Below are positions 844 through 19,594 of a stretch of 21,089 nucleotides of DNA, one piece after another. The stretch spans positions 1-21,089 of IMG/VR virus record IMGVR_UViG_3300042465_002841. One strand, given 5' to 3'. This DNA is from a virus. Each line of letters starts with the position of its first letter. Within the stretch, counting starts at the first letter, position 1. Made by a program: the position numbers and the translations under genes. The notes beneath the pieces were generated by a model. It was not told where the DNA came from. It did no database searches and saw only the letters and a list, made by a program, of their open reading frames with translations.

Positions 844-3800
844 TTAATCTACCTCAAGTATTGGTTCACCACTACCTCTACCAGTTTTAGCAACTCTAAG
901 AATATTAGGATTAGTAGTAAATATTTCAACTGGGTCTAGTCCATCAGGTGTGGTTGTTGAATTTTGAACAGAACCTTTCCAAAATGAACGTTTCATACCT
1001 TCACCTAAATTATTTTTATATATATAATGTGTAGGAAAATATCCTTTAAGTGGTGTTATTTCTACCAAATCTCCACTTGCGCTTGGGAAAAATGGAACTC
1101 CATATGAACCAGTACTAAATGGCAATATTCCAACTTTATATCTATATTTTGTAACAGCTATCTTTTCGTACTTAACTTGTCCATATGGTGTTGCTGGATA
1201 TCCTTCTGTTTGTGTATTTATTTTTTGAGTATATTGCTGTTTTATTAAAAATATATTTTTTCTACTGCCTGTTTCTTGATAGTTACCGAATAAAGGGTCA
1301 TAACTTCTAACTAAACCAGTACCATTAGTAGCATATAAACCATAACCAGCATTAGCAAGAGAATCTCTATCCATACCCACTTCAGTAAACGTAAATGAAT
1401 CAGCTTCACCAGAAAAACTTGCACCAGTTGGACATTGTATTTCCATATCGTAAAATGGTGCACTACCTTCTAATAAAACTCCATCATTTGCGTCAATATT
1501 ACTATTGTAAGATGGATTAGTTGCTTCTAATTGTATAACATCGTTTGCATCTACTATACCCGTATTATTACTAACATCTCCAAATAGATTTGTTATTTCT
1601 GATGCATCTAATATAGCATCTTTTGGTATAGATTCCGCATCCAATAGTACATCTCTATTTGTATCAATAAATGTTTCAAAATCATTTCTCAATGAGTTTG
1701 GTTTATCCCAACGAGTTTTATTTCTTTCTAAATAATGTGGTTCAATTAATAATCCTTTAGATATGTTTGTTCTAACAGGAGCTAAATCAGAAAGTACTTC
1801 AAATAATGATTTGTCTATATATCTTATTAATCTAATATATTCGTAGATATCTCTATTATCTAATCTTTCAAAATAATAATGTCTTAATATATCTAATTGT
1901 TTATAGTTGCTCTTATATTCATCGCCAAAATCTCCAATGTAGTTATCAATATTAAAATCACCAAATGCTTTTAAGATATCCATATTCAACTCCTTGATTG
2001 GAGAGAAAAATAATCCTAAACGATTTGAATCTATTGGAGCTCTATCAAATGATTTTTGAGTTGCTCTAGTTTTGTAAGAAAGGTCACCTATTAAAGTTTG
2101 CTCCTCAAAACGAATTTTATTAGAAACATTAAATCCTAAAGATGGAACATTTGCTGTTACAGTTCTATCATATGGAATATAGTTATATGGATATGCTGGA
2201 ATTGAAGGGAAATTACTAGCCGTTGCAAATCCAGTATCACCAACATAAGATGTATCTATTGAAACGTTTTTAATATATGGGTCTAATACTCTATCTTTAG
2301 GATATTCAAAATCCAAACGGAATACTAAATCTTTTGTTGATGAATCAAAATCGTTACCATTAATTGCATCTGGAAATAATGTGTGGTTTTCAAATTTACT
2401 TCTTTGTAATGGAACGGTCCATAATCTGAATTCATCTAAATTACCAGAATACCCATTGCTACCAACCTCAATATAATTACCACTTTCCCATTGCGTATCA
2501 TCCGTTAATATAGACATACTAACAAATGTAGTTTGTCTAGTACCATTTGAAGTACCTAACCAAACTTCATACAAAGATGTTGCACCACCATAATTATATC
2601 TATTTATTGCTACATTTGAATAATTTTCAAGTGATATTGGAAATCCTAAACTTCCTGTTTTTAAATCAGGACCATAAGCATATGGATAATTACTAGCCGT
2701 ATCAAAGTAATATGTTGAAACAGATGCACTTATAAATGGTTCTAAAATATAAGTACTTGTTGATATATCACCACCAAAGTTTAATTCTAATGTTGCAAAA
2801 GAACCAGTAGTTTGTAATAAATCTAAATTCCATTGACTTGATGATATTAATCTTTGTGGCGTTGATGTAATTGATGCTGGTAATATTCTAAACTCAATAC
2901 AATTAGGATAATCTCCAGTTTTTGTTTGTTTCCAAGGAACCCTTACAGATGAATTATTATCTAATACAATTGCTGCGGTTCTATCATCGAATGTAAATTT
3001 ACTAACCCCACCTCTAGTTGGATCTTGAGGTCCACCAAATTCCATTATTGTCAACATAGATTGAGGTACACCATAACAAGCCATTACAGCTTTAAGTGCC
3101 CTAGAAGTACCTTTATGCTTTAATAGGTATGGTAAGTTATTTAAAATTCTTCTCCATACTTCATAGTTTGCATCTTGTAAGCTTCTTCCATATTTTTGAT
3201 ATCCATCTTGAGTTGTACCAAACATATATTCCCAAAGTAATTGAGAATTAAATGCTCTTTTTTCAGTCCAACCCATTGAGTTTAGCATAGAACTAACCAA
3301 CGAATCAGGCACTCCTAATTCTTCTTTATGTTCTACGTTTTTAGCTTTTTTTATTCCATTTATATAAACCCATAAAATATCAAAATGTTGCCCAATCATA
3401 TCTAAGAATAGAATAAAATCGGCGTTATCATAATCTTCAGTTATATATTCAGGAAGATTATTACGCATTGCATATGAATTATATTTATCAAATTCTTCCG
3501 AATCAGCCAATGCAGTATCATACCAACTAACAACCAATGGATTTGTTATAGGTCTTAACACTCTATAAGTTAATGATGTTGTTGAGTTAAAATAATCTAC
3601 TTTTGGGTATGCTAAATCATTTTCTGATTTAAATAAGAATTTTTCATATCCATCAAATGTTTTTATTAAATTACTTATTTTTTCAGCAACAGAGTTAGCT
3701 TGAATCAATGCATATGGTGCAGGAATTACTTGTGGTACTTCGTATTGTAATTGTAAAATTGGGTCTATTTGTTCACCAATTAAAATCTCATCACCTTGAA

Positions 3801-6111
3801 TTTCAGGAGTACCATCGCCACCAGTATCTTCAGTTAATAAATAACCAATTGGAAATGTTGTTTGTGTTAAACTTAAATATTTTGCTTGATATTCTTGTAA
3901 AATGTTTATTTTATAATAAAAGTTTTTTAATCGTTCAGCGGCTGAACCAAAATGTACAAATTGGTTAAATGTATAGGAAGAACCATTAACATATTGAATA
4001 TTTAACTTTTCGGTATCAATATTATTTTGTGATGTTATTTTATTTAAGATATCATTTGATGTAGTAGAACCACTTGCTATCAAATCATCAAATATCTTAA
4101 AAGAAGTTCCATTATCAGGCTCTAATAAAAAATTAGGTCCTTTTAGTGGTGCACAATAGCTTGTATCAACTCCACTAATTGTTATTGTTTCAACTATTGG
4201 GTCAGCTTGTAATTTAGAAATCCAAACTTGCTGATTTGGTTGTACAGTTGTTTCTAATGGCTCATATAATTTTAATATAAGTGAATCATTATCGCCAGTC
4301 CAAGTTGTAATTACTTTATTATCACCATTACCAATATGCAATAAGTGAGTTAAGTATTTTGAAGTTTCATCTGCAAAAATAGTTTTATCAAATTGTGCAA
4401 TAAATCCTTCCGCAATTCTACTAATAGCAACTTCTCTAGGAATTGTTAAATCACCTTTATCAAATTGAATTGTAATTAATTCTTGCTTACCAGTTACAGT
4501 CTGTCTTCCACTTATATTATATGGAATTAAAATTAATTGTAAATTAATTATATCTTGGTCTTCCGAAACGTTAGTTCCGGCATTTATTAATAATTGCTTA
4601 AAATTAAATGTATGTGTACCATTTTTTGGTAATTGTGTAAAATTAGAATTAGTACTACCAACGTACATTCTAACATAATCAGCATCAACAGAATCAAATG
4701 ATATTTTAAAATCAACATCAGTACCTACATAATCAGGTCCTCTTAATACAGAAGGATATTGTATATTTCTAATATCAGGAACACCAACCCATATATCATC
4801 CACAGCTACCAATGCTGTTTCTATAACATCGCCATCTCCATCAGCATTATTTGGAACTAATTTTATTGTGTATTTTCCAATTACATCAAATGTTTTTGAT
4901 GGTATTATTATTATGGCACTTTGACCACTAACATTAAATTCATATGTTTTATCCTTTACATATGCAGTTACTTTTGTAGTATTTCCAAAAAGATTCAATC
5001 CAATTGGAACTGCTGCATCTGAATTAATATTATATTGTGTAAAGTCTTGAGATACTAATTGCGCTGGATTTGTAAATGTTATTATAGGAACTGTAGCTTG
5101 GATTATAGCAAAGTTTTCACTAGTAATACTAATATTTAAATTTCTATCAAAATTTACAAGTGTAGATATACTTTCTAAAGCAGAAGTTGCTTCTAATGTT
5201 TGTGTTTTTATACCTTCACCACTAATTACTATTTTAGTAATTCTATATGAATTTATATTAGATGTTTGTATTGAATATGATAGTTCAGAATCTGCACTAT
5301 CTTCAATTTCACTAACTCCATTGGTCAAATTAAATGATTCAACTCCAGCTAATTCTTTTTTATTTTTTATAAAAGTAACAGAATTATTTGGTCCATCTAT
5401 TGCTACATTTAATTTAATTTTTGGAACAAGTGGGTCTGTTGGATTTTGTATTACTTCATTTTGAGCTAATGTAAAATCAATAGATTTATCTTGCGAATCT
5501 ACATCATAATTATAACTTGTTTCAAGTACATCTCCTACAAATTTTCTTATTCTAAATGTATATGCCGGTGTTGTTGAGTAAACACTTTTATAAGTTTCAG
5601 GATCGTATGTATATAAATTATTAGTATCATTTGTATAGTTTGGAAGACCCCTAGTACTATATGCTACTAAACTATCATATGGATTTATATCTAAAGCTAT
5701 ATATGGTACATAATATTTTGGATTTTGTACAATATCTATTATAAATTTTTCACCTGATGAATATCCTTCTTTTTGTACAGTAATGTTTTTAGGACCGTTG
5801 GTTAATAAATCACTCAAAGATACTGAAAGTCCGTAGCTTGTAGTTTGATATAATGGTAAATCGTTTACATAAATACTTGCTTCTGTATTTGATTTAATGT
5901 AAAGTATATTTTTATTATCAGTATTAGCTACATTTGGCGTATCTACAATTGGTATAAATCCGGCAGTACTTCCTCCACCGCCACCATATGAAATACCAAC
6001 GCCAGAGCCACCACCTATACCAATGCCCGATTGATTATCGAGATTGTTTAGCTGTTGAGATTCACTTACACCAAACCCATTATCAAAAGCGTTTTCGTCT
6101 ACTGCTTTCAT
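844..6111 (-). CDS. Giant multidomain tail/baseplate structural protein (1755 aa)
   Basis: The protein starts with a Gly-rich segment (about residues 27-50). A PEGA-like module follows (about 68-130: short strands, a bulky aromatic patch, then NITVQKEGYSSG). Next comes a long run of beta-rich Ig-like sequence to about residue 560. A helical segment around residues 900-1010 contains NNLPYLLKHKGTSRALKAVM and a following CYGVP, a pattern I recognise from large tail proteins of Bacteroidetes and marine phages. It vaguely resembles tail-protein-I-type helical regions. Residues about 1070-1265 look like a LamG/concanavalin-like jelly roll (opening IEFRILPAS, closing GNLDEFRLWTVPL, then LVFRLDFEY). 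Residues about 1500-1545 hold repeated (L/I/V)DA(N/S/E) units. The C-terminus TGRGSGEPILEVD is also a recurrent phage ending. It is the last gene of the baseplate block, so I infer a baseplate-wedge or peripheral tail role with possible glycan binding. There is no direct evidence of enzymatic activity. Confidence 0.75.
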   Translation of the reverse strand: MKAVDENAFDNGFGVSESQQLNNLDNQSGIGIGGGSGVGISYGGGGGSTAGFIPIVDTPNVANTDNKNILYIKSNTEASIYVNDLPLYQTTSYGLSVSLSDLLTNGPKNITVQKEGYSSGEKFIIDIVQNPKYYVPYIALDINPYDSLVAYSTRGLPNYTNDTNNLYTYDPETYKSVYSTTPAYTFRIRKFVGDVLETSYNYDVDSQDKSIDFTLAQNEVIQNPTDPLVPKIKLNVAIDGPNNSVTFIKNKKELAGVESFNLTNGVSEIEDSADSELSYSIQTSNINSYRITKIVISGEGIKTQTLEATSALESISTLVNFDRNLNISITSENFAIIQATVPIITFTNPAQLVSQDFTQYNINSDAAVPIGLNLFGNTTKVTAYVKDKTYEFNVSGQSAIIIIPSKTFDVIGKYTIKLVPNNADGDGDVIETALVAVDDIWVGVPDIRNIQYPSVLRGPDYVGTDVDFKISFDSVDADYVRMYVGSTNSNFTQLPKNGTHTFNFKQLLINAGTNVSEDQDIINLQLILIPYNISGRQTVTGKQELITIQFDKGDLTIPREVAISRIAEGFIAQFDKTIFADETSKYLTHLLHIGNGDNKVITTWTGDNDSLILKLYEPLETTVQPNQQVWISKLQADPIVETITISGVDTSYCAPLKGPNFLLEPDNGTSFKIFDDLIASGSTTSNDILNKITSQNNIDTEKLNIQYVNGSSYTFNQFVHFGSAAERLKNFYYKINILQEYQAKYLSLTQTTFPIGYLLTEDTGGDGTPEIQGDEILIGEQIDPILQLQYEVPQVIPAPYALIQANSVAEKISNLIKTFDGYEKFLFKSENDLAYPKVDYFNSTTSLTYRVLRPITNPLVVSWYDTALADSEEFDKYNSYAMRNNLPEYITEDYDNADFILFLDMIGQHFDILWVYINGIKKAKNVEHKEELGVPDSLVSSMLNSMGWTEKRAFNSQLLWEYMFGTTQDGYQKYGRSLQDANYEVWRRILNNLPYLLKHKGTSRALKAVMACYGVPQSMLTIMEFGGPQDPTRGGVSKFTFDDRTAAIVLDNNSSVRVPWKQTKTGDYPNCIEFRILPASITSTPQRLISSSQWNLDLLQTTGSFATLELNFGGDISTSTYILEPFISASVSTYYFDTASNYPYAYGPDLKTGSLGFPISLENYSNVAINRYNYGGATSLYEVWLGTSNGTRQTTFVSMSILTDDTQWESGNYIEVGSNGYSGNLDEFRLWTVPLQRSKFENHTLFPDAINGNDFDSSTKDLVFRLDFEYPKDRVLDPYIKNVSIDTSYVGDTGFATASNFPSIPAYPYNYIPYDRTVTANVPSLGFNVSNKIRFEEQTLIGDLSYKTRATQKSFDRAPIDSNRLGLFFSPIKELNMDILKAFGDFNIDNYIGDFGDEYKSNYKQLDILRHYYFERLDNRDIYEYIRLIRYIDKSLFEVLSDLAPVRTNISKGLLIEPHYLERNKTRWDKPNSLRNDFETFIDTNRDVLLDAESIPKDAILDASEITNLFGDVSNNTGIVDANDVIQLEATNPSYNSNIDANDGVLLEGSAPFYDMEIQCPTGASFSGEADSFTFTEVGMDRDSLANAGYGLYATNGTGLVRSYDPLFGNYQETGSRKNIFLIKQQYTQKINTQTEGYPATPYGQVKYEKIAVTKYRYKVGILPFSTGSYGVPFFPSASGDLVEITPLKGYFPTHYIYKNNLGEGMKRSFWKGSVQNSTTTPDGLDPVEIFTTNPNILRVAKTGRGSGEPILEVD

Positions 6112-12563: not shown

Positions 12564-13436
12564 CTATTCATATATTGAAACGTGCATAGGGTCATTACGA
12601 CTTAACCATGTCATTCCCTGTGATTTAAATATTGCAGCAACTTGCTGAAATCCTTTATCAAACTCATTTAAATCTCTAACTTTTGTCTTACCACTATATA
12701 TCCCGTCATCTTTAAAATTATAACCATATGGATATACAGATGTGTTCATATCTATTGCAGTTCCCCAAGCGTGATTTGAGAATCTAGTACCACAAGTTAC
12801 GTTTCTAACTGCCAACCCACCTGCGCAATTTTCAATATATTTTTGTAAACCCTGTGCTTTTATTTTGTCAATAGCTGGTTTTATGATTGCTGCTAAATTT
12901 TTATGAACCATTATTTTAGAAGCACCTTTTTTAGTTGGGAACATAATTTCAGTACAATTAGCTTTTAAATATTCATTATTAACCTTATACCAATATCTAG
13001 GACATTTTCCACTTTCAGTTGTTTGTACTTCAAATGAACCAGGCGAACCCTTTGCTGGCCAATGACCGCTTCCACATTTCTTAAATAAAGCCTCATCACC
13101 TCTACCAGCTAATTGTGGTTTTGGTTTATCCGGCGTACCTGCACCAGAACCACCACTAGCACCGCTAGTACCTGCTGTTCCTGATGTGGGCCCAGTACCA
13201 AAATCAAGACTACCACTTTCTCCAAGTGGTGGGTCTTCTCCTAATATTACGCCATCATCACCGGATTGATTAACTTCTTCATTATACTCTTTGACAGAAT
13301 TTAAAGCTTCTTCTGAAGTAACTTGACTGTTATTTGCCATAGCATCTTCTTCACTTGCGAATTGAGCTTCATAAGCGGCCTGACTAGCTGGGTATTCTAC
13401 ATTTATATCTCTTTCAATTACTGCCGCTTCTTCGGA
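12564..13436. repeat. Left copy of an ~0.87-kb tandem gene-part duplication
   Basis: This segment encodes the acidic helical region, the Gly/Ser linker and the M15 domain of paralogue A. It is homologous to 13652-14530. The last 100 encoded residues are identical between the copies although many third codon positions differ, so the duplication is old and the protein sequence is held by selection (or only partly homogenised). Confidence 0.85.
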
Positions 13437-13640
13437 ATCAAAATCACCAGCTTCTCCACGTTTTGCTGGAGTAACCATATATCCAGTCCAATTTATTATA
13501 CCAGGTCCCGGAGTTCCAATCGGTGGATATAATGATACTGTATTTATAACACCACTCACAGTAGATAGATGTAGTGTAGCATATGATATAAAATCATCTA
13601 CTATAACAGATGTTTTTTTTGTTGGTGGAATTACTGACAT
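12564..13640 (-). CDS. Virion protein fused to M15/VanY-like peptidase domain, paralogue A (358 aa)
   Basis: The N-terminal ~65 residues include a TVSLYPPIGTPGPGIINW stretch that I recall as a stand-alone motif of phage structural proteins. Residues about 69-145 are acidic and helical, residues 146-170 are a Gly/Ser/Thr linker, and residues 185-358 form the enzymatic part. M15 zinc-peptidase signatures are intact: FSNHAWGTAIDMN supplies His290 and Asp297, and NDPMHVSIYE supplies His353 with Asp350 three residues before it, as in L-Ala-D-Glu/VanY-like members. Six cysteines (C189, C213, C229, C272, C283 plus a nearby H193) may form disulfides or a small metal site. It probably cleaves peptidoglycan stem peptides. 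The structural N-terminus and the position between hub and wedge genes suggest a virion-borne lysin for entry, rather than a lysis endolysin. That placement is inference. Confidence 0.75.
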   Translation of the reverse strand: MSVIPPTKKTSVIVDDFISYATLHLSTVSGVINTVSLYPPIGTPGPGIINWTGYMVTPAKRGEAGDFDSEEAAVIERDINVEYPASQAAYEAQFASEEDAMANNSQVTSEEALNSVKEYNEEVNQSGDDGVILGEDPPLGESGSLDFGTGPTSGTAGTSGASGGSGAGTPDKPKPQLAGRGDEALFKKCGSGHWPAKGSPGSFEVQTTESGKCPRYWYKVNNEYLKANCTEIMFPTKKGASKIMVHKNLAAIIKPAIDKIKAQGLQKYIENCAGGLAVRNVTCGTRFSNHAWGTAIDMNTSVYPYGYNFKDDGIYSGKTKVRDLNEFDKGFQQVAAIFKSQGMTWLSRNDPMHVSIYE

Positions 13641-13651
13641 ATTATAGTTTT

Positions 13652-14530
13652 TTATTCATATATTGAAACGTGCATTGGGTCATTTCTACTTAGCCACGTC
13701 ATTCCCTGTGATTTGAATATTGCTGCCACTTGTTGAAATCCTTTATCAAATTCATTCAGGTCTCTAACTTTTGTCTTACCACTATATATACCATCATCTT
13801 TAAAATTATATCCATACGGATAAACAGAAGTATTCATATCAATAGCAGTTCCCCATGCATGGTTTGAGAATCGGGTTCCACAAGTTACATTTCTAACTGC
13901 AAGTCCGCCGGCACAATTTTCAATATATTTTTGTAAACCCTGTGCTTTAATCTTTTCTATTGCGGGCTTTATAATTGCTGCTAAATTTTTATGAACCATT
14001 ATTTTAGAACTTCCTTTTTTAGTTGGGAACATTATTTCAGTACAATTAGCTTTTAAATAATCATTATTAACTTTATACCAATATCTAGGACATTTTCCTT
14101 TTTCAGTAGTACTTACTTCAAAATTACCCGGAGTACCTTTTGCCGGCCAATGTCCATTACCACATTTCTTAAATAAAGCTTCATCACCCTTTCCAACTAA
14201 TACCGGTTTTGGTTTATCGGGCCCATCACTACCACCACCGCCACTAGCACCGCTAGTACCACTAGTACTTGCTACTGATACGGGCCCAGTACCAAAATCA
14301 AGACTTCCGCTTTCTCCAAGTGGTGGGTCTTCCCCTAATACTACACCATCATCATCAGAATTATTAAGTTCAGATTTATATTCCTTGATTGAATTTAAAG
14401 CTTCTGCTTCAGTAACTTGACTATTATTTGCCATAGCATCTTCCTCATTTTCAAATTGTGCTTCGTATGCTGCTTGACTCATTGGATATTCTTCATTGAT
14501 ATCCCTCTCAACAGCAGCTGCTTCTTCCGC
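13652..14530. repeat. Right copy of the ~0.87-kb tandem gene-part duplication
   Basis: Partner of 12564-13436. Homology begins at the EEAA(A/V)xERDIN region and runs to the stop codon. The unequal 5' parts mean the duplication (or domain capture) joined the same cassette to two different N-terminal domains. Confidence 0.85.
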
Positions 14531-14953
14531 ATCAACCGAATCTTGCGTTGGTATTGATGGAGATGCTATTGGTGGAGTCCATTGACCCGGATTAACTACT
14601 ATATTAGTTACAACAGAAACATTTGAAGTTGCTCCCGTTGCTGGAATTATAGGTGTTGGAAAATTATTCATCGTTGCCCCACTCCAATATGCAATTACAC
14701 CCTTACCCATCTCACCAACCAAATCATATGGTGCAGTTGATGTTTGTCCTTTTAATAAAGCTGCTTTGAATAATTGAGTCATAGCTTCAACATTTCCTTT
14801 TTGTAAAGATATTTGATGAAGTGAATCCTTTCCTCTTTTAATTGCAGCATCGTATTCATTAGCATATGTTTTTGCTACAATATCTACATCCGCAATACTT
14901 TCTGGACTATTAGAAAGATTTAATATGTTATCTTTAAATGTTTGCCAAGACAT
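13652..14953 (-). CDS. Virion protein fused to M15/VanY-like peptidase domain, paralogue B (433 aa)
   Basis: The N-terminal ~125 residues differ from those of paralogue A. They start MSWQTFKDNILNLSNSPESI and include YDLVGEMGKGVIAYWSGATM and PTPIIPATG, a recurrent structural-protein segment of T4-like phages (family recalled, function unknown). Then come the same acidic helical region (about 141-215), a Ser/Gly linker (about 225-243) and the M15 domain. Zinc ligands are His365, Asp372 and His428, with Asp425 in the catalytic position. The final 100 residues are identical to those of paralogue A. The gene stops 11 bases before paralogue A starts, so both come from one transcript. The two products probably share a peptidoglycan-cleaving domain mounted on different docking domains of the tail, for example two rings or a heteromer. 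Activity against a given stem peptide cannot be told from sequence. Confidence 0.77.
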   Translation of the reverse strand: MSWQTFKDNILNLSNSPESIADVDIVAKTYANEYDAAIKRGKDSLHQISLQKGNVEAMTQLFKAALLKGQTSTAPYDLVGEMGKGVIAYWSGATMNNFPTPIIPATGATSNVSVVTNIVVNPGQWTPPIASPSIPTQDSVDAEEAAAVERDINEEYPMSQAAYEAQFENEEDAMANNSQVTEAEALNSIKEYKSELNNSDDDGVVLGEDPPLGESGSLDFGTGPVSVASTSGTSGASGGGGSDGPDKPKPVLVGKGDEALFKKCGNGHWPAKGTPGNFEVSTTEKGKCPRYWYKVNNDYLKANCTEIMFPTKKGSSKIMVHKNLAAIIKPAIEKIKAQGLQKYIENCAGGLAVRNVTCGTRFSNHAWGTAIDMNTSVYPYGYNFKDDGIYSGKTKVRDLNEFDKGFQQVAAIFKSQGMTWLSRNDPMHVSIYE

Positions 14954-14964
14954 AATTAATTTTT

Positions 14965-15924
14965 TTAAACATCTAAATAGGTATCTATATGTCCTTGAAG
15001 TGTGTTAATAGCTCTATCAGGATATATATTTGTAAAAGAAGTACCAGTTATAAATCCTGTTTTATTTTGATTTTTGTATGCACTTGTTATATAAAATCCT
15101 TTTTTGTTTCGTTCAATATACAAATAGAATTTTTTACCCGTATCTAAACCTTCATATGTTTCTACGAATTTTTGAGGTTCAGTTAAATCAGGCTCACCTA
15201 TGGTTTGATTTGATTTTTCAATAGCTGCTTTAGCTGCATCTTGCGTTGGCTTTGCATCCTTTTCAGCAATTTCTGTTGTTTTGTTAATTGTAATTTTATC
15301 TTTTTCTACTTCTGTCAATGGTTTGCCACCATTTTCTTCTTGAGCCTTTTTAATTTCATCCTTTACACTTTGTTTAGCTTTTTCTGCAGTAGCAGTTGCT
15401 TTTTCTTCTGCACTTGCAATTCCTTGTTTTACTTTATCTTGTGCAGTTGATACGGCCGCTTGAGCTTTTTCTTGTGCAGTTGCTACGGCTGCTTGTGCTT
15501 TTTCTTGAGCCCCAGTTATAGCTGCTTGTGCTTTTTCTTGAGCCCCAGCTACTGCTGCTTGTCCCTTTGCTACTAATTGTTTTGCTTTAGCTGCAGCTGC
15601 CGCTAACTTATCTTTGAATTTATTATTTTTAAGTTTCTTTGGTACTGGTAATTCTTTTTGTTTAAATTCAGGAACACCAGGTAATTGTGGTACGTTTGGT
15701 AACTTAGGTAATTGTGGTACTGCAGGTGGTTTTGGTATTTTTGATTGTATATCACCCACCGCATTTGTTGCAGCTGATGTTGCATTTCCAACTGCGTTTG
15801 ATGCTGCTGCTGATGCATTTCCAGCTGCGTTTGATGCTGCTGCTGATGCATTTCCAGCTGCGTTTGTTGCGGTTGCTTGTGCATTTCCAGCTGCGTTTGA
15901 TGCTTGTTCACTTAAATTTTCCAT
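14965..15924 (-). CDS. Ala-rich 11-residue-repeat protein with Pro hinge (319 aa)
   Basis: The architecture is very regular. Residues 10-53 are four 11-residue units of the type NAAGNASAAAS. Residues 63-86 are Pro-rich (QLPKLPNVPQLPGVP). Residues 127-181 are about five 11-residue units of the type GAQEKAQAAVA. A charged helix follows to about 240. Residues about 245-319 form a small alpha/beta domain with KKFYLYIERNKKGFYITSAY. An 11-residue period gives three helical turns per unit and is typical of LEA-like and other long amphipathic helices. No cysteine or catalytic motif is present. It is encoded between the gp5-like hub and the M15 proteins, so a rod, spacer or hub-associated tail component is the likely role. 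A tape-measure role is unlikely at this length. LSE at residues 4-6 resembles a prohead-protease site but may be chance. Confidence 0.7.
   Translation of the reverse strand: MENLSEQASNAAGNAQATATNAAGNASAAASNAAGNASAAASNAVGNATSAATNAVGDIQSKIPKPPAVPQLPKLPNVPQLPGVPEFKQKELPVPKKLKNNKFKDKLAAAAAKAKQLVAKGQAAVAGAQEKAQAAITGAQEKAQAAVATAQEKAQAAVSTAQDKVKQGIASAEEKATATAEKAKQSVKDEIKKAQEENGGKPLTEVEKDKITINKTTEIAEKDAKPTQDAAKAAIEKSNQTIGEPDLTEPQKFVETYEGLDTGKKFYLYIERNKKGFYITSAYKNQNKTGFITGTSFTNIYPDRAINTLQGHIDTYLDV
15382..15546. repeat. In-frame 33-bp repeats, second Ala-rich helix
   Basis: About five degenerate 33-bp units encode (G/T/S)AQEKAQAA(V/I)x in the 319-aa protein (residues 127-181). The units nearest 15480-15546 are almost identical at the nucleotide level, which implies recent unit gain. 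The repeats keep the reading frame, so copy number can vary without breaking the gene. Confidence 0.85.
15766..15897. repeat. In-frame 33-bp repeats, first Ala-rich helix
   Basis: Four 33-bp units encode NA(A/V)GNAxxxAx (residues 10-53 of the 319-aa protein). The two central units are identical or nearly so at the nucleotide level, while the outer two have diverged. They are coding repeats, not a CRISPR or an iteron array. Confidence 0.85.
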
Positions 15925-17617: not shown

Positions 17618-18433
17618 TTAAACTGGGATTACTTCGATTGTAATCTTTGGTTGATATCCTTCAGGCAATTGTCTATTAATACCTTTGAATTCATCCACCT
17701 TACCTTTAAAGTAGGTTATTTGTAATATACGGTCTGTCAGATTCATTACCGTTTGTGAAGAAGTAGACATTTCTTCAGTGTCTCTTTTCATATTCAATTG
17801 AGGTTTAGTTGGGAAGTATTCCTTTCTCATAGCTTGTGCTATTTCTTTCCAATCTTCTACTTTATCAACTGATTTCTCTGCTGATATCTTTCTCAATTTT
17901 GAGCTTAAGTATTTTTCACCACTTGTGTATCCAGCATCTGTGAACATATGTCCGTGATTTGTACGAACAACAGGTGATTCGGAGTTTTGAAGTTTAACAT
18001 CAGGCTTATGCTTTGATGTAGTTTCAATACTAACCAAATGTTTTGTAGATGATACAAATGTATGACCTTTCAAAGATAATCCACTCTTGCCCTTATATGA
18101 TAGTGCAGCTCTTACTGCATCCATTAAGGTAGGTTGCTTAATGATGTTTCTCATCTTGTCACCATCAGGTCCAGGTTTACCACCCTTCTTTACAATCTTA
18201 TGTTCAGCTTCATCGTGTCCAACTAATAGTGCTGAGTTTACAACACCTATTCCGTTTTCATTTAAACCCTCACTCCAATCAGTTACTAAATCGTGCAGAT
18301 ATGCAACTTCCACACCATCAATGATAGTATGTACTATTTCTAAAGATGGATTATAAGCTCTATCTCTATTCTTAGCTAAGATAAATTTATCGTTAATTTC
18401 TTTAGATACGATAATGCATTCTGAGAGTTTCAT
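17618..18433 (-). CDS. Ntn-hydrolase-like protein (C45/NRDE-related), 271 aa
   Basis: The sequence fits an N-terminal-nucleophile hydrolase of the acyltransferase C45 / TANGO2-NRDE / linear-amide type. Cys6 is followed by a strand (IIV), then FILAKNRDR (Arg23-Asp24). Next come TDWSEGLNENGIGVVNSALL (about 51-70), GHTFVSST (123-130) and VRTNHG (156-161, Asn159), the usual order in this superfamily. The nucleophile must become the N-terminus. Here Cys6 is preceded by MKLSE, and L-S-E is the T4 prohead-protease consensus, so cleavage at E5/C6 by that protease or by autoproteolysis would expose it. Substrate is unknown: an amide, an acyl-amino acid or a cell-wall amide are conceivable. The gene overlaps the upstream one (TAATG). 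In phages this fold is an uncommon find, and I judge the family call likely but not certain. Confidence 0.65.
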   Translation of the reverse strand: MKLSECIIVSKEINDKFILAKNRDRAYNPSLEIVHTIIDGVEVAYLHDLVTDWSEGLNENGIGVVNSALLVGHDEAEHKIVKKGGKPGPDGDKMRNIIKQPTLMDAVRAALSYKGKSGLSLKGHTFVSSTKHLVSIETTSKHKPDVKLQNSESPVVRTNHGHMFTDAGYTSGEKYLSSKLRKISAEKSVDKVEDWKEIAQAMRKEYFPTKPQLNMKRDTEEMSTSSQTVMNLTDRILQITYFKGKVDEFKGINRQLPEGYQPKITIEVIPV

Positions 18434-19320
18434 TAGTTAATATAAGCGTTTAGTTCATATCTATCCTGTCCACCGTGTAAACTCTTAGTATAAGAACCAT
18501 CTGAATTATCTCTTTTGAAAGTTCCCATATTATAAACCTGAATATGTAATAACTTCTTTTGTGGTTTACCACCTTTAGTTAATTCAATTGAGAATCTATT
18601 TGTTTTTCCAGCAGATGGTTTTCTAGGGCCCATTCCTATCTTTCTAAATGAATCCTCATCATCTACTTCATATCCTTTCTTTTCTGCATACTCTTTAGCA
18701 GTATTGATAGCTGCTGAATATGTGAAGTGATATACGGGATAATCCGATTTAGCTTCTTTTATAGATTCAGTAGTTCCTTCAAATAATCTAACAGAAAGAA
18801 TTACATCTTTACCTATATTTAAATTTCTTACTTTATGTCTTTCTAAATCGTAAGATGGATTACCAATTGTATTTGCTTTAGCAACTACACCATTCTTAAT
18901 AAAGTGTGGTTGTAATCCAGAGTAGTTATCATCCCTAAACATAAAAACATTATTAGGTAATTCTTTGGATATTTTAATTATTTTCTTTAAACCTTCTTTA
19001 CCCATAAAGCAACCACCTTCACATTTAGTTCCACCATAGGTTTTACCTTTTTGGAATGATGCTTCGGTTACTATACTTTCTCCAAACATACCTACAAAGT
19101 TACCTTGATATTTGTTACCCGGTCTTCCACTTATTGCTGTTGCGAAGTCCATTCTATCTTTTAACTTTCCTTTAGCTATAAAGTTAAAAAGTTGCTTAGC
19201 ATTCAAATTGAAATCATCTATAAATTTTTGTACTGCAATTCCACGAGTACCAGTAAATCCAGCAATTCCCATTGCTTCTTTACTAGCTGTTTCGTTTAGT
19301 ATATTTTTTAAACTTATCAT
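18433..19320 (-). CDS. Conserved phage protein with N-terminal LNE tag (295 aa)
   Basis: The N-terminus MISLKNILNETAS carries L8-N9-E10, a good match to T4 capsid-targeting and prohead-protease sites. Residues about 28-80 hold KFIDDFNLNAKQLFNFIAKG, then DRMDFATAISGRPGNKYQ, a segment I recall in several proteins of marine T4-like phages. C100-x3-C104 (KCEGGCFMGK) could be a half metal-binding site. The C-terminal ~100 residues (AKEYAEKKGYEVDDEDSF, FSIELTKGGKPQKKLLHIQ, YELNAYIN) are another recurrent phage domain of unknown function. I see no secure enzymatic motif. ADP-ribosyltransferase activity, the role of the T4 head protein Alt, was considered but has no clear R/STS/ExE pattern. Its position next to another LNE-tagged gene and the Ntn-hydrolase suggests a head-packaged protein. 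Confidence 0.6.
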   Translation of the reverse strand: MISLKNILNETASKEAMGIAGFTGTRGIAVQKFIDDFNLNAKQLFNFIAKGKLKDRMDFATAISGRPGNKYQGNFVGMFGESIVTEASFQKGKTYGGTKCEGGCFMGKEGLKKIIKISKELPNNVFMFRDDNYSGLQPHFIKNGVVAKANTIGNPSYDLERHKVRNLNIGKDVILSVRLFEGTTESIKEAKSDYPVYHFTYSAAINTAKEYAEKKGYEVDDEDSFRKIGMGPRKPSAGKTNRFSIELTKGGKPQKKLLHIQVYNMGTFKRDNSDGSYTKSLHGGQDRYELNAYIN

Positions 19321-19321
19321 A

Positions 19322-19594
19322 TTAAAATCCTATTGAAATTAAATCACCATCCGCTTCAACCCAACGAATTTTTAATGCTAATAATTTTTTAAGAGTATCA
19401 GCTCCAAAACGATAACCACTTCCAAAGTTACCATCTGCTGGAATATCTACAACCATTCCGTGAATACCAGAAAAAATTTGAGAATGGTCTGCACCAATTA
19501 CTTTTTGAAATGCCACAACCTGTTTTTGTTGAATAGGTTTTAATTCTTTGAATTTTATTTCAGATGCTTCGTTTAATTGAGTAAGCTTTATCAT
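19322..19594 (-). CDS. Small phage protein with N-terminal LNE tag (90 aa)
   Basis: The N-terminus MIKLTQLNEASEIKFKELKP contains L7-N8-E9 followed by Ala-Ser, close to the tag of the 295-aa protein (ILNETAS). The remainder has a helix (PIQQKQVVAFQKVIG), then HSQIFSGIHGMVVDIPADGN and a GSGYRFGADTLKKLLAL helix, ending in a strand pair (IRWVEADGDLISIGF). I recall similar short proteins in aquatic T4-like phages but know no function. The gene is separated from its neighbours by single bases, so it is in the same operon. If the tag is cleaved, an ~81-residue mature protein would remain in the head. This is inference. Confidence 0.6.
   Translation of the reverse strand: MIKLTQLNEASEIKFKELKPIQQKQVVAFQKVIGADHSQIFSGIHGMVVDIPADGNFGSGYRFGADTLKKLLALKIRWVEADGDLISIGF

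Follow-up and report, generated by a model that had tools for sequence, protein, structure and literature searches.

A Predicted Phage Ntn Hydrolase with a Prohead-Protease-Type Site Directly before Its Nucleophile: A Candidate for Activation during Head Maturation

Introduction

Head proteins and ejected proteins are known substrates of prohead proteases, which trim them, and the short propeptides are read as targeting tags. In T4, the protease gp21 cleaves after L/I-X-E and carries LIE close to its own N-terminus; the propeptide of Alt comprises 7 residues, and an Asp at P1 in the CTS of IPIII prevents processing without affecting the targeting (PMC9026906). In phiKZ and SPN3US, the prohead protease cuts ejected proteins, so that a phage head protease trims proteins entering the host (PMC5694885).

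The gene studied here raises the question of whether a cut of this kind may also create the catalytic residue of an enzyme. It is located in a 21,089-nt stretch of viral DNA (record IMGVR_UViG_3300042465_002841; hereafter, the window). An earlier note, made from the letters of the window and the translations of its open reading frames, described the gene product as a C45/NRDE-type Ntn hydrolase with a Cys nucleophile, and suggested that the L-S-E preceding Cys6 is a gp21-type site in exactly the position required to expose this cysteine. If this is true, the cut would mean catalytic activation and serve as a timing device, with the enzyme switched off in the producing cell and armed in the particle. 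Below, we consider the fold of the protein, the conservation of the site, and the genomic surroundings of the gene and its relatives.

Results

The Window Protein Is Predicted to Be an Ntn Hydrolase

The open reading frame starts with MKLSE-C, followed by NRDR, WSEGLNENG (residues 53–61) and RTNHG, in the order given in the earlier note (Table 1). Its ATG shares one base with the stop codon of the upstream gene, and the two genes are therefore probably co-expressed.

Table 1. Features of the hydrolase gene and of the two genes upstream in the window. A slash marks the putative cleavage site.
Feature	Position	Strand	Basis
Predicted Ntn (C45/choloylglycine-hydrolase-like) hydrolase precursor gene, 271 aa	17618..18433	(-)	ORF with ATG start; AF2 model; PDB fold matches
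Putative propeptide MKLSE with the gp21-type site L-S-E at its end	18419..18433	(-)	sequence and homologue conservation
Cys6 codon, predicted catalytic N-terminal nucleophile (P1' residue)	18416..18418	(-)	invariant in 143 distinct contexts; structural alignment
Glu5 codon	18419-18421	(-)	sequence
NRDR motif, residues 22-25	18359..18370	(-)	invariant, alignments A3 and A4
WSEG motif, residues 53-56	18266..18277	(-)	invariant, alignments A3 and A4
RTNHG motif, residues 157-161	17951..17965	(-)	invariant, alignments A3 and A4
Upstream gene, 295 aa, CTS-like N-terminus MISLKNILNE/TASK	18433..19320	(-)	ORF
Upstream gene, 90 aa, CTS-like N-terminus MIKLTQLNE/ASE	19322..19594	(-)	ORF

Scans of the window protein against Pfam, PHROGs and NCBIfam gave no significant family, and searches of the PDB by sequence, with the window protein as a single query and as a profile, returned chance matches only. 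Among 24 homologues, weak matches to Pfam AAT (C45) appeared in five and to TANGO2 in one (best E 0.0033); the curated score of PF03417 AAT (C45) was not passed, and the window protein gave no match to it. The hydrolase would work like C45 enzymes but is not filed as a member of PF03417 AAT.

The structure prediction points to the Ntn group. The AF2 model of the window protein, obtained with a 24-sequence alignment, had a pLDDT of 85.5 and a pTM of 0.86, and its low confidence at residues 1–3 suggests that the prefix is probably flexible. When compared with the PDB by Foldseek, the model gave 39 matches at E ≤ 0.001, where IAT came first (E 2.7e-9), followed by CV2077, bile salt hydrolases (BSH), penicillin V acylases (PVA) and NAAA; precursor structures (2x1c, 2iwm and 6dxw) were among these matches. 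The VIA-align Z-scores were 20.7 for CV2077, 19.9 for NAAA, 19.7 for IAT, 18.8 for acid ceramidase and about 17 for BSH and PVA, in line with the alpha-beta-beta-alpha fold of Ntn hydrolases. Model residue 6 opens the alignment and lies opposite residues 103 of IAT, 126 of NAAA, 143 of acid ceramidase, 1 of PVA and 2 of BSH, all of which we take to be the catalytic cysteines. Thus, Cys6, invariant among the homologues, occupies the place of the first residue of the aligned mature chains, which makes it the expected nucleophile of a predicted Ntn hydrolase of the N-terminal Cys type, N-terminal in the mature form. These comparisons support the assignment made in the earlier note, which had also proposed a search among Ntn families; the fold was found by structure, and a sequence-family match was not.

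A gp21-Type Site Is Kept ahead of the Cysteine

Scans of viral contigs yielded several hundred relatives (182, 371, 440 and 381 in separate scans), and tblastn found two homologues in isolated phages, Chryseobacterium phages MA9V-1 and MA9V-2, with about 44–45% identity. No cellular relative was found in a scan of genome contigs. The MA9V-1 protein taken as a lone query matched no viral contig, while alignment queries did. Most scans used peptide patterns distant from the N-terminus, although one included [EM]C; the N-terminal result therefore does not stem from the way the relatives were searched for. The variants in the first set, which comprised 80 loci, were MKLxEC, MKITEC, MINEC, MLKEC and MQLTEC. 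More distant sets comprised MKKDILINEC, MNNLFDKIMLGEC, MAKLLNEC, MFDKIILGEC and others, as well as MC starts. The N-termini of the isolated-phage proteins are MTSANNNEFLNEC in MA9V-1 and MTSADNNAFINEC in MA9V-2, where FLNE/C and FINE/C are kept; the MA9V-1 homologue is MA9V1_182, with the prefix-bearing start MTSANNNEFLNE.

After the removal of identical contexts, 143 distinct genes remained for the tally. An [LI]xE/C start is present in 134 of them, VxE/C in two (MSKPVTE/C, L252 and L253) and Met-Cys in seven, with no other type, and the cysteine is present in all 143. The prefixes of the 136 prefixed genes are 4, 5, 7, 8, 9, 10 or 12 residues long, and the site always abuts the cysteine. Glu occupies P1 in 136/136 cases and is never replaced by Asp; as both of its codons are in use (GAA in 61 genes, GAG in 75), the residue itself is under selection. 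The absence of the Glu-to-Asp exchange, which requires a single-base change, fits the block caused by Asp at P1 in T4. P3 is Leu (from six codons), Ile (from three codons) or, in the two genes mentioned, Val, and P2 accommodates ten residue types. The fewest changes on a tree of 103 mature sequences were 0 for P1, 12 for P3 (all between L and I), 32 for P2 and 4 for the presence of the prefix, these counts being approximate because the bootstrap was not fully settled, and the two V-x-E genes having been found later. Given that [L/I]-x-E occurs at about 1.1–1.6% of positions in the proteins of these phages, its frequency before the nucleophile exceeds chance in the genes compared. As judged from the alignments, two things are fixed across the family: a cysteine able to become residue 1, and a gp21-type site wherever a prefix exists. 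MINE/C and MLNE/C are the minimum that a P4–P1 site allows. The proposal that L-S-E is such a site therefore stands, with [LI]xE kept in 134 of the 136 prefixed homologues while x drifts; strict conservation of L-x-E-C does not, in view of the two V-x-E genes and the seven Met-Cys starts.

A general count of L/I-x-E near the N-termini was also considered as a proof and was dropped. The genome-wide excess was weak in three large contigs (0.021–0.027 at residues 6–8 vs. 0.011–0.015 at residues 41–58) and absent in MA9V-1 as a whole.

The conserved site bears on the question of whether the protein cleaves itself at Glu5-Cys6, in which case L/I-x-E would stem from interactions between the prefix and the active site of the same protein. 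Among the closest relatives by fold (IAT, NAAA and penicillin V acylase), propeptides are usually removed by autoproteolysis, the precursor structures mentioned above belong to the matches, and the scissile bond sits right at the nucleophile. However, self-cleavage predicts no need for L/I at P3 and Glu at P1 that would match the protease of related phages across prefix lengths from 4 to 12, and it leaves unexplained the neighbouring genes that have the same motif without an Ntn domain (see below). We therefore regard autoproteolysis as unlikely, and cleavage by the prohead protease as the preferred explanation.

Relatives Starting with Met-Cys

The seven Met-Cys starts among the 143 contexts correspond to about four changes on the tree. 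In all proteins that have lost the prefix, Met is followed directly by Cys and never by another residue. Methionine aminopeptidase can expose Cys from Met-Cys, and presumably these relatives arrive at the same mature form in this way. The idea that Met-Cys phages are devoid of the protease was ruled out, as gp21 was found in some of them: Met-Cys homologues occur also in gp21-bearing phages (G041, G042, G043 and G045), thus indicating that the coupling is dispensable. Some Met-Cys genes are neighbours of the baseplate operon (L104, L111, L109), and others are surrounded by unrelated genes of the replication type (L143, L160, L106). According to the earlier note, homologues starting directly as Met-Cys would refute its idea. 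Such homologues do exist, and the exposed N-terminal Cys is still what is conserved; we would argue from these comparisons that most but not all members of the family have the coupling, and that the Met-Cys forms do not refute it.

The same genes help to evaluate another explanation, in which the protein is an ordinary capsid-targeted internal protein, L/I-x-E is a tag for packaging or processing, and the exposure of Cys is incidental. T4 internal proteins do bear cleavable CTS prefixes, and the upstream genes in the window carry similar ones. Yet a mere tag accounts neither for a cysteine invariant in 143 contexts nor for the loss of the prefix giving exactly Met-Cys; the shortest prefixes hold the cleavage site but no whole CTS, and the fold demands an N-terminal Cys. 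This makes a simple capsid tag very improbable when compared to a prefix whose removal would expose the nucleophile.

The Prohead Protease and the Genomic Neighbourhood

If a prohead protease removes the prefix, it should be encoded by the phages in question. A gp21-family protease was found in 21 of 64 related records, the longest ones included. Peptidase_S77 (PF03420) scored above the cut-off in MA9V-1 and MA9V-2, in 4/34 records of the window group and in 15/28 further records; the records without PF03420 are mostly short fragments. PHROGs label the protease as a head maturation protease, and the major head protein, portal and terminase were identified alongside. The window is itself a 21-kb fragment that has neither this protease nor a head cluster. 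The gp21-like protease that the earlier note had proposed to look for in the rest of the genome was thus found in related phages and not in the window.

The prohead protease of MA9V-1 lies within a 1347-aa protein, MA9V1_151 (L081, OR050627.1, 126501–130544), whose size greatly exceeds that of T4 gp21 and of the freshwater-phage versions (roughly 200 aa).

In the same phages, sites of this type are present near the N-termini of head proteins, namely, the protease (MKGLLIE/T), a scaffold-like protein (MASSKLLKE/A) and a capsid protein (MANFDLSKLME/G). The hydrolase gene may also be found among the head genes. In L155 (contig G058, 266 kb), it occupies 5004–5831 within the head cluster, together with the protease (2845–3444), a scaffold-like gene (6561) and the major capsid protein (7740), and in L120 the terminase genes follow the hydrolase gene. 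Most copies, including that of the window, lie outside the head cluster, between variable genes and a baseplate operon (gp25- and gp6-like).

This prevailing location next to the baseplate genes is what one might expect if a host protease or another phage protease removed the prefix in the cytoplasm, independently of head assembly, and the Met-Cys relatives indeed need no head protease. Against this, the motif corresponds to the gp21 specificity and is common to the gp21, scaffold-like and capsid proteins of the same phages, and we know of no host protease that would be specific for L/I-x-E. Cytoplasmic processing is thus improbable in our opinion, and we continue with the prohead protease as the preferred candidate.

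The variable upstream genes often have N-termini resembling the T4 CTS (MIKLKDLLNE, MISLKNILNE, MIKLTQLNE; 9–10-residue forms), and both genes upstream of the hydrolase in the window are of this type (Table 1). The first 12 residues of the directly upstream gene contain [LI]xE in 32 of 76 distinct cases. At upstream positions 1–3, such N-termini were found in 53/201 genes vs. 55/452 at downstream positions 1–8 (Fisher p 1.3e-5, with a crude non-redundancy filter). The L-x-E prefixes of the two upstream genes, just as the Met-Cys minority and the gp21-family protease of the relatives, had escaped the first reading of the sequence.

Short homologues of the upstream 295-aa protein (L008:4716-5360, L073:9410-9997, L049:5386-5931) start with MKSLKE/AFVKG or MIRLKE/AFIKG, and the window protein has an internal SIVTE/ASFQKG where these short homologues begin. 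Possibly, judging by the sequences, a head-protease site is kept ahead of the shared domain despite the differing N-terminus.

Discussion

Direct support exists for the fold, as a prediction, for where the nucleophile lies, for the conservation of the site and for the protease in relatives; moreover, part of the family has neighbours of the head-gene or CTS type. The coupling inferred in the earlier note is the best-supported reading at the sequence level, qualified by the Met-Cys relatives. In this mechanism, the gene product would be an Ntn cysteine hydrolase from the C45/choloylglycine-hydrolase/NAAA fold group, made as an inactive precursor with its nucleophile masked by the short prefix. 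The gp21-family prohead protease of the phage would cut after the prefix (MKLSE in the window) at L/I-x-E, thereby freeing the alpha-amino group of Cys6, which would act as both the catalytic nucleophile and the base. The prohead is where gp21-type proteases work, so that activation of the enzyme would take place there, in the course of head maturation. Once active, it might work in the head or leave with the DNA and cut an amide in a Bacteroidota cell that has just been infected.

We consider it likely that the catalytic nucleophile is created within the prohead, when the prohead protease takes off the prefix, and that the enzyme then acts there or is ejected. The more specific version, a zymogen switch in which the head protease creates the nucleophile in the prohead, the enzyme is injected in its armed state along with the genome and relatives have shed the switch several times, has in our estimate a slightly better than even chance. 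The travel with the DNA into the next cell is the least certain step, because the shortest prefixes are devoid of the targeting half of the CTS, and another docking route would be needed. Although MKLSE ends in L/I-x-E, as do the prefixes conserved across the homologues, a CTS of about 10 residues with targeting residues 4 and 7 was not found: the window prefix has 5 residues, many relatives have 4, and prefixes of 4–5 residues are too short to contain both. The protein data in the MA9V-1 paper comprise SDS-PAGE only.

By analogy with the fold relatives, the substrate is perhaps an N-acyl lipid or another acyl-amide. A lipid amide is a guess only, made because the nearest folds cut N-acyl amides and because N-acyl amino lipids and sphingolipids are well-known lipids of Bacteroidota.

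Known CTS cargo, with Alt and the IP proteins as examples, would be the nearest system. As in T4 Alt and IPI–IPIII, we see a short prefix ending in L/I-x-E and, in related phages, a gp21-family protease, and Alt is an enzyme too. The difference is that the T4 propeptide is described as a targeting signal, whereas in the window protein the catalytic residue would arise through the loss of the propeptide, and the shortest prefixes are without the part bearing targeting residues 4 and 7. The enzymes C45/IAT, NAAA and acid ceramidase share with the window protein, as predicted for it, the Ntn fold, the N-terminal Cys nucleophile and a removable precursor N-terminus; unlike them, self-cleaving and endowed with long propeptides, it has a prefix that in the family measures 4–12 residues and fits a separate protease. 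Penicillin V acylase and bile salt hydrolase (CGH family) likewise have the same fold and an N-terminal Cys, and PVA has a three-residue prefix, but there is no family-level sequence match to the CGH family, and the prefix described here contains a conserved protease site. In phiKZ, the cleavage occurs after S/A-x-E, in contrast to L/I-x-E here. The earlier note knew of no described coupling of this kind; in agreement with this, we found in the open-access papers searched no Ntn hydrolase with prohead processing or in phage virions, and no cleavage generating an Ntn nucleophile. What would be new is that the cut generates a catalytic residue.

The proposal offers a concrete, testable case of head maturation switching on cargo enzymes. 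A large unannotated protein family of freshwater phages, whose relatives include proteins of Chryseobacterium phages and which is without a Pfam, PHROG or NCBIfam assignment, would gain a role, and a conserved L/I-x-E right before a residue that needs to be N-terminal may guide the search for further cases.

Other Observations

Two adjacent genes of the window located next to the baseplate genes, 12564–13640 and 13652–14953, have nearly identical C-terminal halves. The product of the latter matches Peptidase_M15_4 (D-Ala-D-Ala carboxypeptidase), and the pair has the appearance of a tandemly duplicated gene for a tail-associated peptidoglycan enzyme. At 14965–15924, between spike-like and peptidase genes, the window encodes a 319-aa protein with many near-perfect Ala/Asn-rich repeats (NAAGNASAAAS...).

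BFVD entry A0A1B1IVH7 is a 944-aa viral protein with a domain 38% identical to the hydrolase. Finally, a large terminase-adjacent protein of 800–927 aa (L095:8656-11301, L096:2690-5092, L098:8674-11457; a 1490-aa form in contig G043) starts with MKGLAKFLVE/SILLEA, followed by VVVVYSGRFQPFHKGHYAT, which resembles the nucleotidyltransferase HxGH motif. Possibly, this is another packaged enzyme with a cleavable prefix.
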